This document shows, piece after piece, positions 51,360 through 59,665 of a stretch of DNA of 64,000 nucleotides. Source of the DNA: Flavobacterium sp. I3-2 (lineage in GTDB: Bacteria; Bacteroidota; Bacteroidia; Flavobacteriales; Flavobacteriaceae); NCBI RefSeq assembly GCF_013389595.1, contig NZ_CP058306.1:124001-188000 (forward strand), written 5' to 3'. The position numbers and the translations under genes were made by a program. Every line of letters begins with the position of its first letter. The stretch's first letter is position 1. A model generated the notes under the pieces. The model ran no database searches. It worked only from the letters and a program-made list of their open reading frames with translations, and had not been told where the DNA came from.

Positions 51360-52286
51360 TTATAAGTCAATTTGTTTTATTTTACTTTCGTAAATACGAA
51401 AATACTCTTTTTTGTAATCTTTGGACAAAAAACTTCTGTCGATCACATTTTGTACTTGATTTATTTGCTTAGAGAAGTCTTTGTAAATATTATCTCTAAC
51501 CGTTTCAGATAGTTCTAAACTCATTGCCAATTGATCAAAATCTGAACGTTTTATTTTTCGTTTACGACCACCCAAAGTTAAAGCCAAATCTTCTTTATCG
51601 TCAGGAAAAATCAAGTTCACATTCAACAAATCATAAGCAGGTGAAAACAAGATACCTTTATCTGTATGCATTAACGAAAAGTTTTTTAAGTGCATATCGT
51701 TATTACCTGTCAAGAAAGAAAACAAAACCAATCTAAAATATTTGATAGCATCTAACCCTGAATTGGTAGTATACTGTTTGATGATTTTCCCCACTCGTTC
51801 GTAAGAACTTTTATATTTTTGTTCGGTTAGTAATTCCGATAACTGACATAAATCTTCTACGTGAATTTTCTTACCATTCGATCGATCGAAACGCTTGGTG
51901 ATATAAGCTAGTTCGCCTGTTGAAGTTCGAATTAAAGCATGTTGAGCGGTATCAATTTTAAACAACTTGGCTAAGTGCATCGTTAGATCTTCCACCTCGG
52001 GCATAAAAGAAAATTCAGCAGATTGTGGCTTTAGAATATAGTCTCCCCATAAACCAACTAAAGTTAATCGTTTGTTACCTTGATCCTCGTTTAAGCTCAA
52101 TGATATTTTAGGTTGAACACCAGTTAAGGCCAATCGTTCGTTAACCGTAATTTCCGCTAATTGATTTAATTTCTCTTGATCTAATTCTAGAGTAGGAACT
52201 TGCGTTGTTTTAAAGAATTTTTTAGAACATTTCGAATGATATTCACCTGTTTCTACCGATTGATAACAAAATAAACAATTAGTCAT
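51360..52286 (-). CDS. hipT: HipT-like serine/threonine kinase (toxin of HipBST)
   Basis: About 308 residues from ATG 52286. The kinase is of the HipA fold but lacks the N-terminal subdomain, which is encoded separately by the gene upstream, the mark of HipBST. Motifs in order: a Cys-rich start (CLFCYQ...YHSKC, residues 4-20), the P-loop-like GVQPKISLSL (56-65; Ser62 and Ser64 form an SxS pair as in the HipT autophosphorylation motif), ATP-binding Lys in YILKPQ, catalytic NNDMHLKN, and SPAYDLLN. It is expected to phosphorylate an aminoacyl-tRNA synthetase (TrpS in E. coli HipT). Its start overlaps hipS by 8 bp and has a strong GGAGGAGGAA ribosome site (52291-52300), unusual in this phylum. 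Confidence 0.83.
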   Translation of the reverse strand: MTNCLFCYQSVETGEYHSKCSKKFFKTTQVPTLELDQEKLNQLAEITVNERLALTGVQPKISLSLNEDQGNKRLTLVGLWGDYILKPQSAEFSFMPEVEDLTMHLAKLFKIDTAQHALIRTSTGELAYITKRFDRSNGKKIHVEDLCQLSELLTEQKYKSSYERVGKIIKQYTTNSGLDAIKYFRLVLFSFLTGNNDMHLKNFSLMHTDKGILFSPAYDLLNVNLIFPDDKEDLALTLGGRKRKIKRSDFDQLAMSLELSETVRDNIYKDFSKQINQVQNVIDRSFLSKDYKKEYFRIYESKIKQIDL

Positions 52287-52614
52287 ATTTTTCCTCCTCC
52301 ATAGGATATACAGATACGGCACCAATGGTATCTCTGCACAAATTGATTAGTAATTCAAAACGATCTCGAGGATTTAACTTCCAATGTTTTTCGCCTATTT
52401 CAAGTAACCAGCCTTCAGGAATTAAGCCATCAAAAAATGGAAAAAGAACCTTGCTATGATAAGGTTGTTCCGTTAGTGGTAAGGTTAAACTAATTGATTT
52501 TGAATTCGATTTTTCCAAATATTCCTGTTCGTACTGAAAAGAATATCCGTTATCGCCTTCAACTAAAACACCCGCCAATTTATCTTGAAAATATATTTTT
52601 GCTTGACGTACCAT
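52279..52614 (-). CDS. hipS: HipS-like antitoxin (HipA N-terminal domain)
   Basis: 111 residues that match only the N-terminal subdomain of HipA: YFQDKLAGVLVEGDNGYSFQYEQEYL, then FPFFDGLIPEGWLLE and CRDTIGAVSVYP. In the tripartite system this stand-alone domain is the antitoxin that binds and restrains the kinase. It starts on the base that ends hipB (TAATG overlap) and overlaps hipT by 8 bp, so the three proteins are made by coupled translation. Confidence 0.85.
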   Translation of the reverse strand: MVRQAKIYFQDKLAGVLVEGDNGYSFQYEQEYLEKSNSKSISLTLPLTEQPYHSKVLFPFFDGLIPEGWLLEIGEKHWKLNPRDRFELLINLCRDTIGAVSVYPMEEEKYD

Positions 52615-52817
52615 TATTCACGAGTTTTATCGATTACCCCTACTTCTTTCCCAAACAAAGCCAACACGTCATTCACTTTGTCTAAACGAAGTGTTTTCTT
52701 TCCTTGTTCTAAATCACGAACAAAACGCAAACCTACACCAGCATTTAGCGCTAAATCTTCTTGAGTTAGCTTTAATTCTTTTCGTTTTTGTTTTACAAAT
52801 AATCGTAATGAATGCAT
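52614..52817 (-). CDS. hipB: HipB-like XRE-family transcriptional regulator
   Basis: 67 residues comprising one XRE helix-turn-helix (about 5-57; KQKRKELKLTQEDLALNAGVGLRFVRDLEQGKKTL). It should repress the hipBST operon through the three palindromes immediately upstream. No further domain is present; in the tripartite system the antitoxin role is in HipS. Confidence 0.88.
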   Translation of the reverse strand: MHSLRLFVKQKRKELKLTQEDLALNAGVGLRFVRDLEQGKKTLRLDKVNDVLALFGKEVGVIDKTRE

Positions 52818-52820
52818 AAC

Positions 52821-52918
52821 TATACCTTTTATGGTATAAATATACTAAAAAAATTTAAAACATACCTCTTAGGGTATAAAATTTTAAAAAGATAAAAAAA
52901 TATACCTTTTGAGGTATA
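52821..52918. promoter_or_regulatory. Triple HipB operator
   Basis: Three copies of the palindrome TATACC-N6-GGTATA at 52821-52838, 52861-52878 and 52901-52918. The middle copy reads ATACC-N6-GGTAT with one weaker outer position. Their centres are 40 bp apart, exactly the same distance twice, placing successive dimers on nearly the same helix face (about 3.8 turns). The first overlaps the region directly before the hipB start, and a -7-like TATATTTA (minus strand) sits between the first and second. Confidence 0.8.
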
Positions 52919-53007: not shown

Positions 53008-53526
53008 CTAATCTATTTCATAATAATCAAAACCAATGATTTGGACAGCTTCATCTATACAATCAATTGCTTCAATTTTATGAACAAATAGTACATATTC
53101 ATCTGATTCTGTATCAATACATCCTATTTGTAAGCCGTAAGCTCTTAAACAATCATCGTAATCATTTAAAACATCTGCTGAAGATATGGAAGCACCTGCT
53201 CCATAAGTTTCTGAATTGGGCAAGCTTAAGGAAAGTTCAAAATGTTTTTGAACCGCATTATCAATAAAATATTCCAAATCGTTTATGTCCTGTTTCCAAT
53301 CAAAAAATTTGATAAAAAACAACTGCTCTTTTTCTAAATAATCCAACACATAAATAAAGGTTGAAAAATAACGGTCGTCATCAGAGTAATCTTTTAGGCT
53401 ATGAAAAAATTCTAAAAGTTGTGGTTGTAATGTTGGATGAACACAATTTGACACTAAAGTTAAATATCCCTGCTTTTCTTCTTCGGAAAGTTCGCGAAGA
53501 TTTATGTTTGATGTGCTGTTATTCAT
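53008..53526 (-). CDS. Hypothetical acidic protein
   Basis: 172 residues, strongly acidic, all helical and strand without signal or membrane segment. I do not recognise it. The middle segment FIKFFDWKQDINDLEYFIDNAVQKHF (about 73-98) and the C-terminal CIDTESDEYVLFVHKIEAIDCIDEAVQIIGF look like SMI1/KNR4- or immunity-type proteins, but that is only an impression. It lies 38 bp downstream of hipA and 190 bp upstream of hipB, on the same strand, so it might belong to either module or be an immunity gene. Confidence 0.4.
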   Translation of the reverse strand: MNNSTSNINLRELSEEEKQGYLTLVSNCVHPTLQPQLLEFFHSLKDYSDDDRYFSTFIYVLDYLEKEQLFFIKFFDWKQDINDLEYFIDNAVQKHFELSLSLPNSETYGAGASISSADVLNDYDDCLRAYGLQIGCIDTESDEYVLFVHKIEAIDCIDEAVQIIGFDYYEID

Positions 53527-53564: not shown

Positions 53565-54794
53565 TTATACTTTTGAAATTACCTTCTGAATTAGTTCTCT
53601 GTTAGACTTACTGATACCAAAATCTTTAGATAAGTTCATCCATTTAGCAAGTGAAGAACGAGTTTGTTCAATAACATTTTCTACGAATTCTTTTGACAGT
53701 TTTGCTTCCAAACCTAATTTAATAAGGTGTTTGATACTTATATTTCGCCCTTCTCCCATGACCATGGTACTTTGTTCTCCTCCTGGACCACTAGAAAAAG
53801 TAAGATCATAAGCAGGTGACAATTTCCATTCACCAAATTCATTCATCAAAAACGTGAAATTTTTTGAGTGATCGTCTCGATTGTGAGCCATTACATTAAA
53901 AACGGCTAAACGAAACATTTTTTCTACCTCTCGAATATCTTTTGTTATCACAGCTGTCAATGATAGTAAATCTTCATAGTCAAGAGATGGAAATCTAAAA
54001 TTATTATGAATCAAACCGCTAACTGTATGCATATGGAAACGTTTGTTGCCATCTCTATCAAAGCGTTTTACCGCAAAATAGCCATTCCCTTTTTGTGAAG
54101 GGAACAAATGAATGTTTGGCATTTCAATTCCAGCATCTAACGCCATTAAGCCGTACACATATTCTATTGCACCAGCATCCAATCCATCTTGCGAATTAGC
54201 AAACTTCACCATCCAATGTTCCAAACCATTTGATAATTGATCTTTTCCATGAACTATGTTTTTTCTTTCAGAATCAACACCAATCAATGCTTTTGGTCGT
54301 GCTCCAGCAGAAGATCCATTTAAAGCTAATAGTTCAGCAATCACTTCTTCTGATTCTCCTTGCAAAACTTCTTCGGTTTGTGCAGCCAAAACATCCAAAT
54401 TAATCCTTTCATTATTGTCATTTAGGCTTTGATCGGGTTCATAAACTAAGGCGCCTAAACCATTTAATCCAACATATGCTAAACGATTCAGCGGAGAAAT
54501 ATCTGAAGGATAGACACCTTCAGAACGAAGTAAACGGTCAAAAAGTAATCTTCCCCAACCATCCGGTAAACTATCATTGAAAACTCCAGCTAAACCTTCA
54601 AAAGGATTTTTTGGAAGCTCAATTACGCCACGTTGTAAAGGAAGTTTTATAGGGGAAATTTCTAAATTAGTTTGTAAAAATGCTTCCTCGTATTCAAAAT
54701 AGATCAAACTATTATGAATAGCCAAACGTCCAACTTTTTGGATTTCAGAACCAAAATCTAAACTTACTTTAATTTCTTTAGTCGTTGTTTTCAT
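53565..54794 (-). CDS. hipA: HipA-family kinase
   Basis: 409 residues, the usual two-part HipA: the N-terminal subdomain (about 1-110, FAGVFNDSLPDGWGRLLFDRLL-type segment) and the kinase. Motifs: the Gly-rich loop GSSAGARPKAL (about 160-170), where Ser autophosphorylation occurs in HipA, ATP-binding Lys in HWMVKFA, the catalytic HNRDDHSKNFTFLM, and SPAYDLTFSSGPGGEQSTMVMGEGRN. It phosphorylates an essential target (GltX for classical HipA; not known here). It overlaps the upstream regulator gene by 4 bp (ATGA). Confidence 0.9.
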   Translation of the reverse strand: MKTTTKEIKVSLDFGSEIQKVGRLAIHNSLIYFEYEEAFLQTNLEISPIKLPLQRGVIELPKNPFEGLAGVFNDSLPDGWGRLLFDRLLRSEGVYPSDISPLNRLAYVGLNGLGALVYEPDQSLNDNNERINLDVLAAQTEEVLQGESEEVIAELLALNGSSAGARPKALIGVDSERKNIVHGKDQLSNGLEHWMVKFANSQDGLDAGAIEYVYGLMALDAGIEMPNIHLFPSQKGNGYFAVKRFDRDGNKRFHMHTVSGLIHNNFRFPSLDYEDLLSLTAVITKDIREVEKMFRLAVFNVMAHNRDDHSKNFTFLMNEFGEWKLSPAYDLTFSSGPGGEQSTMVMGEGRNISIKHLIKLGLEAKLSKEFVENVIEQTRSSLAKWMNLSKDFGISKSNRELIQKVISKV

Positions 54795-55096
54795 TTTCTA
54801 CTTCCTCTTTTTCTACTATTTTTCTCTTCTGATTTTAGAACTTCGTCAATAGATTTAAAATGTTGCTGCTTTGGCTTTAAAGCCTCAATCATTTCATCTA
54901 AACCACCAACAACTGAAAGTATTTTTAAAAATGAATCCAAAGAAATTACCCCCTTTTGTTCAAATTTTCTTAAAGTTGACAACGGAACACCAGATCTTTC
55001 CGACAAGCCTTCTTGAGTCAGTTCCATTTGTAATCGTCGGTCACGGATGTTTTCTACGATTTTCCTCTGTACTTTGGATAAAGAAATAAATAACAT
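54791..55096 (-). CDS. XRE-family antitoxin/regulator of hipA
   Basis: 101 residues from ATG 55096. The XRE helix-turn-helix is at about 10-62 (VENIRDRRLQMELTQEGLSERSGVPLSTLRKFEQKGVISLDSFLKIL), followed by a basic tail (about 80-101). The layout (regulator then HipA-type kinase with stop/start overlap) is the standard two-gene HipBA module. A 22-bp imperfect palindrome lies upstream at 55125-55146. A TTG further upstream (55129) is in frame, but it would put the start inside that palindrome. Confidence 0.87.
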   Translation of the reverse strand: MLFISLSKVQRKIVENIRDRRLQMELTQEGLSERSGVPLSTLRKFEQKGVISLDSFLKILSVVGGLDEMIEALKPKQQHFKSIDEVLKSEEKNSRKRGSRK

Positions 55097-57361: not shown

Positions 57362-58909
57362 ATGGCAAACAAAATAACAGACATGAGTAAAATTAGAAAA
57401 GCAATTAAATTCCATTTAAGTGGTAAGAGCAAGCTCTTTATAAGCAATTATCTGTCGCTTTCCAGAAATACGGTAAAAAAATATATTAGTTTGTTCGATA
57501 GTTTAGCAATGAATGCAGAAGACATTGAACGCAAAACAGATTCAGAATTAGAAATCCTATTTTCTCAAAATATACTAATTACACCCAATCCTAGGTTAGA
57601 AAAACTGTATAGTTATTTTCCAAAAATGGAACGAGATCTTAAAAAGGTTGGCGTAACTGTTCAGCATTTATGGGAGAATTATTATTCAGAAAATCCTGAT
57701 GGATTAAAAAGTTCTCAATTTAGACATCATTTTAATAAATGGAGTAATCGGGTGAACCCTGTTATGCATATGAATCACAAATCAGGTGATAAAATGTATG
57801 TTGATTATGCAGGAAAAACACTTTCAATCATTGATAAAGATACTGGTGAGCTAAAAGAAATCCAATTTTTTGTAGCGATATTAGGCGCTAGTCAATATAC
57901 CTATGCTGAAGCCACTTTTAGCCAACAAAAAGAAGATTTTGTAACTTCTTTAGAAAATGCTATTCATTTTTTTGGTGGCACACCCGCAGCAATTGTTCCC
58001 GATAACTTAAAGGCAGCTGTTATAAAAAGTAATCGTTTTGAGCCTACAATAAATGAAACGTTGGTTGATTTTGCTGAGCATTATCAAACTACTGTTTTGC
58101 CAGCTAGAGCATATAAACCAAAGGATAAATCATTAGTTGAGGGAGCCGTAAAAATACTTTATCAAAGAATTTATGTACACTTAAAGAATCAAGATTTCTT
58201 TAGTTTAGAAGAGCTTAATGATGAAATTTGGAGATTACTCGATATTCATAACAAAAAGAAGCTTACCTCACGTCCTTACTCTAGATTAGAGTTGTTTATC
58301 GAAGATGAACAAAAAGAATTAGCTCCTTTGCCACAAAATCGTTTTGAAATTAAACATCAGTCTTTTGCTACAGTGATGCAAAACGGACATGTACTTTTAA
58401 GTGCAGATAAAAACTATTACAGTGTTCCTTATCAATATTTACGAAAAAAAGTCAAATTACTTTATAGCAAAACAACCGTTGAAATTTATTATAAATATAA
58501 TCGTATTGCAACGCACCCAAGACATTACAAACCTTATGTTTATACAACTCATGCAGAACATATGGCTAGTTCTCATCAATTTGTGGCAGATTGGAGTGCT
58601 TCCAAATTTATAGATTGGGCAAGCAGTATAGATTCTATTATTGCTGAATTGATTATTAAGATTATTGACAGTAAAAATCATCCCGAACAAGCTTATAAAT
58701 CGTGTATGGGCATTTTATCTTTCGAAAAAAAGGTAGGTAAATACAGATTAATTAATGCTTGTAAACGTGCTTTAGACTATAAAATTTACAATTATAAAGC
58801 CATACATAACATTTTAGAAAATAATTTAGACAGCATTGACTCTGAATCAGAATTTGATCTAGAACTACCCAAACACAATAATATCCGAGGGAAAAACTAT
58901 TATAAATAA
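57362..58909 (+). CDS. istA: IS21-family transposase IstA
   Basis: 515 residues. An N-terminal helix-turn-helix (about 10-45; KAIKFHLSGKSKLFISNYLSLSRNTVKKYI) precedes the DDE catalytic core (about 140-300). The catalytic aspartates are seen in MYVDYAGK and IVPDNLKAAV and the glutamate in SLVEGAVKIL, followed by the C-terminal barrel. It performs strand transfer for the element and needs IstB. Confidence 0.92.
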   Translation: MANKITDMSKIRKAIKFHLSGKSKLFISNYLSLSRNTVKKYISLFDSLAMNAEDIERKTDSELEILFSQNILITPNPRLEKLYSYFPKMERDLKKVGVTVQHLWENYYSENPDGLKSSQFRHHFNKWSNRVNPVMHMNHKSGDKMYVDYAGKTLSIIDKDTGELKEIQFFVAILGASQYTYAEATFSQQKEDFVTSLENAIHFFGGTPAAIVPDNLKAAVIKSNRFEPTINETLVDFAEHYQTTVLPARAYKPKDKSLVEGAVKILYQRIYVHLKNQDFFSLEELNDEIWRLLDIHNKKKLTSRPYSRLELFIEDEQKELAPLPQNRFEIKHQSFATVMQNGHVLLSADKNYYSVPYQYLRKKVKLLYSKTTVEIYYKYNRIATHPRHYKPYVYTTHAEHMASSHQFVADWSASKFIDWASSIDSIIAELIIKIIDSKNHPEQAYKSCMGILSFEKKVGKYRLINACKRALDYKIYNYKAIHNILENNLDSIDSESEFDLELPKHNNIRGKNYYK

Positions 58910-58927
58910 CATAAAATCAATATAAAT

Positions 58928-59665
58928 ATGAATGAAGCAACAGTTATCAAACTGAACCAAATGAATTTAAAAGGTATGTGTAATGCCTTTAAATCAACTA
59001 TTGAAAACGGTAATGTAGATCGTTATACTATTGATCAGATGGTATCCATACTTGTTGATGCCGAATGGGATGACCGCCACAATAGACGTATCGAAAGAAG
59101 TATTAAAAACGCAAAATTTCATTACAAAGCTAATATTGAAAGTTTAAATTTTGATTCTTCTAGAAGTCTTGACAGAACTCAAATTTTACGTTTAGCTGAT
59201 TGTGAATTTGTAAACAAAAATCAAAATGTATTAATAACAGGAAGTACAGGTGTGGGTAAAAGTTATTTAGGAACAGCCTTAGGTTATCAAGCTTGTATTG
59301 AAGGCTATAAAGTAAGTTACTTTAATACTTCAAAGTTATTTGCTAAACTAAAAATGGCAAAAGCAGATGGATCTTATTTAAAAGAATTAGCTAAATTAGA
59401 ACGACAAGATGTAATTATATTAGATGATTTTGGACTTCAAGCATTAGATAGTCAAAACAGAATTACGCTATTAGAAATAATCGAAGACAGACATAATAAC
59501 GGTTCTATAATCGTTACATCACAAATCCCTGTGCAAGGATGGTACGATATCATTGGTGAAAAAACAATAGCAGATGCCATTTTAGATCGACTTATTCATA
59601 ACGCACATAGAATTGAATTACAAGGTGAATCAATGCGTAAAAAAAGAAGCAAAAACAACGAATAA
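58928..59665 (+). CDS. istB: IS21-family ATP-binding helper IstB
   Basis: 245-residue AAA+ protein of the DnaC/IstB group: Walker A GSTGVGKSYLG (about 106-116), Walker B VIILDDFGLQ (about 155-164) and the sensor region IIVTSQIP. It binds target DNA and activates IstA. It is 18 bp downstream of istA. Confidence 0.93.
   Translation: MNEATVIKLNQMNLKGMCNAFKSTIENGNVDRYTIDQMVSILVDAEWDDRHNRRIERSIKNAKFHYKANIESLNFDSSRSLDRTQILRLADCEFVNKNQNVLITGSTGVGKSYLGTALGYQACIEGYKVSYFNTSKLFAKLKMAKADGSYLKELAKLERQDVIILDDFGLQALDSQNRITLLEIIEDRHNNGSIIVTSQIPVQGWYDIIGEKTIADAILDRLIHNAHRIELQGESMRKKRSKNNE

Follow-up and report, generated by a model that had tools for sequence, protein, structure and literature searches.

The stretch of the Flavobacterium sp. 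I3-2 genome analysed here (NZ_CP058306.1, positions 124,001 to 188,000; 64,000 nucleotides, hereafter the window) carries a three-gene module of the HipBST toxin–antitoxin type preceded by an evenly spaced array of three operator-like palindromes. All three genes lie on the minus strand: hipB (52614-52817) codes for a 67-amino-acid (aa) helix-turn-helix (HTH) protein of the couple_hipB family (TIGR03070, 9.8e-23, above the cut-off; HTH_3, 9.4e-9), hipS (52279-52614) for a 111-aa HipA N-subdomain-1 protein (PF13657, 6.2e-26; TIGR03071, 1.1e-29), and hipT (51360-52286) for a 308-aa HipA-type kinase without the N-terminal subdomain, whose only Pfam domain is PF07804 (9.3e-47). The open reading frames (ORFs) are all open, complete and overlapping, as described in an earlier, sequence-only reading of the window, the overlaps being 1 nt (hipB/hipS) and 8 nt (hipS/hipT), and the profile search bore out the assignment of the middle gene to the HipA N-terminal domain; the interval given in that reading, 52279..52918, holds hipB and hipS and leaves most of hipT outside. 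The order HTH protein–HipS–HipT, the homology of HipS to HipA N-subdomain 1, the absence of that subdomain from HipT with retention of the kinase motifs, and a Ser/Thr residue in the Gly-rich loop (in an ALT variant) place the module in HipBST; it is not a classical hipBA pair, which has a single full-length HipA, as hipS and hipT are separate genes.

The nearest HipT of solved structure is that of Legionella pneumophila (8ezr, 2.1e-53), with E. coli HipT (7ab3, 5.8e-21) far behind, while HipS matches HI_0666 (7czo, 1e-16) and the HipS chains 7ab3_B (3e-13) and 7vkb_B (4.7e-13). The HipT kinase motifs (the GVQ loop, GN-DMHLKN and YD) are invariant across a 13-row HipT alignment. In the Gly-rich loop of the window HipT, Ala and Thr stand at the equivalents of P-loop Ser57 and Ser59, a pair shared by 45 of the 89 loci of operator class A (defined below) with the motif found; psi-psi-T is among the variants of the S-psi-S loop listed in the available part of PMC10627512. 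HipS Trp69 is aligned with Trp65 of E. coli HipS, which, according to the same part of that paper, is inserted into the HipT active site. The window HipT and most rows of the alignment open with a CxxC...H..C motif (CLxCY...DFHxxC), absent from the TTACYG-class rows and from L. adelaidensis HipT, which looks like a small metal-binding knuckle.

Upstream of hipB lie three 18-bp inverted repeats with 6-nt arms, of the form TATACC-N6-GGTATA and without assigned strand, whose starts are exactly 40 bp apart: O1 (52821-52838, no mismatches, 3 bp from the hipB start codon), O2 (52861-52878) and O3 (52901-52918, no mismatches). The number and spacing agree with the sequence-only reading, which counted three copies of the motif; the middle one has one mismatch (CATACC). 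The motif count by itself is ordinary, with three matches (up to two mismatches) in 64 kb at an expected 1.21, a count reached by 14 of 100 shuffles. The arrangement is unusual nevertheless, as the window's upstream region (L005) has an array score of 52.7, whereas 1630 shuffles reach at most 35.7 (99th percentile 21.2) and 652 other stretches of the same loci at most 50.6 (99th percentile 17.8), and a chance array was rejected on these grounds. A shared regulon was rejected as well, because the rest of the 3.55-Mb genome shows no enrichment of the motif: the relaxed pattern WTACC-N6-GGTAW occurs at 22 places and a backwards control pattern at 20. The region upstream of hipBST is the only place in the genome with three such sites in a row. 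Close homologues have the array too: in the window and seven same-genus loci (L005-L012, HipT 78-98% identical) three sites stand 40-41 bp apart, but one site each in L011 and L012 is below the strict threshold described below.

HipT matches were found in 48 of 150 same-genus genomes (E<=1e-10). An alignment of 13 HipT sequences (E<=1e-30) found them in 51 of 299 genomes at the level of the family, in 86 of 395 at that of the phylum and in 27 of 346 at that of the order; these samples overlap, and the window's own genome is among those counted. The phylum of a Bdellovibrionales-titled locus gave matches in 26 of 191 genomes (1e-25), and a scan of named genome contigs contributed the best 80 of at least 587 loci. 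By HipT similarity 228 loci were pooled, with 60 added by hand, mainly for divergent HipT. In 222 of the 228, permissive profiles and adjacency give hipB-hipS-hipT in that order, and six, in which hipB, hipS or hipT went unrecognised, were dropped; removal of repeated upstream regions and of those under 200 bp left 216 loci, and 169 at under ~85% HipT identity. HipT had no match in phages, nor had the Aliivibrio hipBST locus in E. coli genomes or its HipT in viral contigs, and in plasmids at 1e-40 the latter matched its own record only.

The arrays were sought in two ways. The first search scored triplets of similar palindromic 18-mers, with gaps anywhere from 25 to 120 bp and no spacing prior, in 163 loci including a few duplicates; 136 of these score above the 99th percentile of the shuffles, both gaps fall at 38-43 bp in 131, and at 69-73 bp in 6. 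Gaps of 38-43 bp came up in 7 of the 1630 shuffles and in 3 of the 652 other stretches. The strict search used position matrices trained without a spacing rule on the same loci, which makes it circular for the sequence of the sites and not for their spacing; at its threshold sites occur in 37 of 1080 shuffled regions. Among the 169 non-redundant loci, three or four strong sites were found in 136 and two in 26. The 315 gaps between adjacent strong sites, counted with the poorly defined motif class G excluded, lie at 39-42 bp (233), 52 bp (1), 60-62 bp (52) and 70-73 bp (27), apart from two that skip a site (79 and 81 bp), and none falls elsewhere.

Comparison of the loci thus divides the arrays into spacing classes. 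Gaps of 40-41 bp are found with operator classes A (TATACC), B (TATATG) and F (TACATTC-like), of 61 bp with E1 (ATCACA) and E2 (AGTGCA), and of 71 bp with C (TTACYG). Departures within a class amount to about one helical turn: 61 bp in L218 and 60/61 bp in L297 among TTACYG arrays otherwise at 70-73 bp, 52 bp in L108 among those at 40-41 bp, and a single E2 gap of 70 bp in L209 among those at 60-62 bp. A plasmid locus of Legionella adelaidensis carries TTACYG sites at spacings of 72 and 71 bp, and three loci of the window's own genus (L032-L034) belong to the same class; the loci from the Bdellovibrionales-group search fall into the 40/41 and 71/72 classes, L297 being their TTACYG array at 60/61 bp. 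In five loci of that search (L280, L281, L283, L284, L285) HipS and HipT are fused in one protein of 430-443 aa, yet three sites stand 40-41 bp apart, and these modules are possible links between hipBST and hipBA. Class-A hipBST also occurs in metagenome-assembled genomes titled Caenarcaniphilales (L116), Gastranaerophilales (L119) and Chlorobium (L144); L144 shares its three sites with L069 and L071 and may thus reflect contamination or transfer.

The operator class goes together with features of two of the proteins. The consensus of the HipB recognition helix is GVGLRFVR in class A, GVALTViRK in B, GvGKTvvFD in C, NTLYK in E1 and GVGLRtLKq in E2, with that of class F (GVGLcFVR) near that of class A. 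The active-site Trp of HipS is present in all 120 loci of the 40-bp classes A, B and F and in none of the 43 loci of the 61- and 71-bp classes C, E1 and E2; it is found in two of the six loci without sites.

The array itself has a published counterpart. According to the available part of PMC10653801, Legionella hipBST is preceded by three evenly spaced 18-nt operators, separated by 53 bp and thus 71 bp apart from centre to centre, gel shifts show HipB on them, HipB-HipT-DNA complexes form in vitro, and Legionella-type homologues are widespread in Bacteroidota and related phyla. The suggestions of the sequence-only reading that knowledge of HipBST comes mainly from proteobacteria and that such arrays are little described are therefore not supported, and what is new here is the comparison of array spacing across hipBST loci. 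The L. pneumophila module (PMC10653801; PMC9325769, both in their available parts) shares with that of the window the gene order and a regular series of three palindromes, each with 6-nt arms, ahead of hipB, and differs in their distance (71 against 40 bp); the window HipT has Ala at the position matching Legionella P-loop Ser54. The arms (TATACC in the window against TTACYG) and the HipS residue (Trp against Ile) differ as well, both in comparison with the L. adelaidensis locus. The E. coli O127-type module, as far as the available text of PMC6581861 and PMC10627512 goes, has the same gene order and the HipS Trp, while its HipT is much less similar to that of the window and has SIS in the Gly-rich loop in place of ALT; repression of hipBST by HipB in O127 is reported as cited in the accessible part of PMC9325769. 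The only E. coli-type module seen in the survey, on a plasmid of Aliivibrio fischeri (L240; HipT to 7ab3, 6.1e-94), combines the HipS Trp with four sites (up to two mismatches to a 10-base pattern) 40, 41 and 40 bp apart. Nothing on Bacteroidota HipBST operators or on helical phasing of HipBST operators was found in the literature, most subscription papers lying outside the search.

The locus is best explained, and we consider this likely, as a tripartite HipBST module with an autoregulatory array on which the complexes dock on one face of the DNA, at a spacing of whole helical turns. HipB dimers would bind the three palindromes, as HipB binds such sites in the Legionella gel shifts, and HipB at O1 would block transcription, as O1 overlaps a promoter-like box. 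HipT, held by HipS, may join HipB on the DNA, as reported in vitro for Legionella only, and the HipB dimers on the array probably carry HipS-HipT. The array would hold neighbouring complexes, perhaps in contact with one another, on one face of the helix, and for this reason its spacing would change by whole turns (four here, six or seven in relatives). HipS probably neutralises the HipT kinase as its E. coli counterpart does, Trp69 entering the active site, to judge from the conservation of this residue. Modules of the E. coli type are further characterised by phosphorylation of TrpS by HipT.

In most of the relatives examined the spacing appears to differ by whole turns, the gaps fitting 4, 5, 6 and 7 turns at ~10.15 bp per turn. 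The strongest competitor, which we regard as unlikely, is that the three palindromes are independent HipB operators whose spacing is a frozen accident inherited in each clade, with no contact between the bound complexes. It is consistent with the stepwise gel shifts of Legionella (available part of PMC10653801) and with the HipT tree (FastTree, 172 rows, several branches poorly supported), on which the spacing state changes just four times. The operator class changes nine times on that tree, more often than the spacing, which speaks for the array. Against the frozen accident, the spacers are not conserved while the spacing holds within 1-2 bp: their identity within a locus is 0.41, compared with 0.39 after shuffling (n=103). 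The changes within a class, of ~10-11 bp, also argue against an accident, as does the coherence of the spacing events with whole turns. Over eight hand-listed events the zero-phase coherence is 0.93, reached in 0 of 5000 simulations, and over six (two left out) it is 0.92 (p 0.0006), or 0.93 with free phase (p 0.0024).

Another possibility is that the geometry of the promoter, and not protein contacts, sets the spacing, O1 lying over the -7 box and O2 close to the upstream element. The -7 promoter element of Bacteroidota has the consensus TAnnTTTG, and the box TATATTTA (52837-52844, minus strand), which overlaps the first two bases of O1, resembles it. A loose match to this element begins 6 bp before O1, and overlaps its start, in 62 of 89 class-A loci, and has the same position in all 10 class-F loci. 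This agreement is class-dependent: in 12 of 18 loci of class B and 9 of 15 of class E2 the match begins 10 bp further out, 16 bp before O1, and in classes C and E1 no single position holds most loci; in 7 of 12 E1 and 12 of 15 E2 loci O1 covers the assigned hipB start, beginning 11 bp ahead of it. Moreover, gaps of 40, 61 and 71 bp are all found, and O3, further upstream, keeps the same gap. Promoter geometry was rejected as the cause on the position of the box, and we regard it as very improbable. An origin of the 40-bp period by duplication, as a short tandem repeat devoid of a regulatory role, might be suggested by the equal unit length but is hardly credible and was rejected on the spacer identity at the shuffled level, the more so as the palindromes recur in divergent loci and the HipB recognition helix follows the site class.

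Several observations weigh against one-face docking at whole-turn spacing. The fit requires ~10.15 bp per turn, which is under the usual helical repeat of DNA, 10.5 bp, and the events in the phase test are few as independent spacing changes. Of the 169 hipBST loci, seven have at most one strong site (six none and one a single site), and a clear array was not found in some further ones, e.g., L262 from the order search and L287 from the Bdellovibrionales-group search. Cooperativity would be an inference not favoured by the Legionella gel shifts, as PMC10653801, in its available part, raises complexes of intermediate occupancy, unlike the cooperative HipB of E. coli HipBA, and no published binding, repression or toxicity test of a Bacteroidota HipBST module was found in the literature searched. 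Finally, some hipBA loci depart from the ladder: sites are 26-28 bp apart in five of them (L328 from Bacteroidota, and L330, L334, L336 and L337 from the Bdellovibrionales-group search), 39/39 bp in L347, and 28/39/28 bp in E. coli K-12, where the classical hipBA likewise has several palindromic HipB operators upstream, with a full-length HipA and no separate HipS. A whole-turn ladder common to all Hip modules was rejected on the 26-28 bp and 39/39 bp loci. The hipBA control is incomplete, as of its 53 loci 15 unrecognised by the HipS profile (14 from Bacteroidota, nearly all with full-length HipA) and two in which no hipB was found were left out. Of four alphaproteobacterial plasmid hipBA loci, one has a clear array (L241, 30/41 bp) and three are weak, and the Bdellovibrionales-group searches yielded some loci with a fused or full-length hipA and gaps of 40-41, 49-51 or 61 bp. 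In six of those with full-length hipA (L295, L339-L343; L293 is the same place as L339) three palindromes follow one another at 49-51 bp, as an array of five turns would.

A bolder extension of one-face docking, which we offer tentatively as a possibility, is that HipBST promoters act as assembly rulers on which HipB-HipS-HipT complexes are stacked next to each other along a single DNA face, so that operator spacing could evolve only in whole turns. The mode of neutralisation (Trp-containing HipS with four turns, other HipS with six or seven) might have co-evolved with the array geometry, which would make the promoter-bound array part of toxin control.

Directly upstream of hipBST lies a full-length hipB-hipA pair (53565-55096, minus), with a DUF6630 gene (53008-53526) in between. 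The array search found no clear array at this hipBA (score 14.4). A second Hip kinase stands beside hipBST in 3 of 77 named loci (flanks up to 2.5 kb), and a Bacteroides hipBA near a hipBST is mentioned in the available part of PMC10653801. Further along, two adjoining plus-strand ORFs of 515 and 245 aa (57362-59665) form a pair that we take to resemble IS21-type istA-istB.

Through the comparison, an array described in Legionella becomes a pattern open to testing in several phyla: operator sequence, spacer and recognition helix change, and the operators mostly keep their number and helical phase. The operator classes paired with HipB recognition helices make up a natural specificity code. Should whole-turn spacing be required, contact between HipBST complexes on DNA could be probed by simple genetics.
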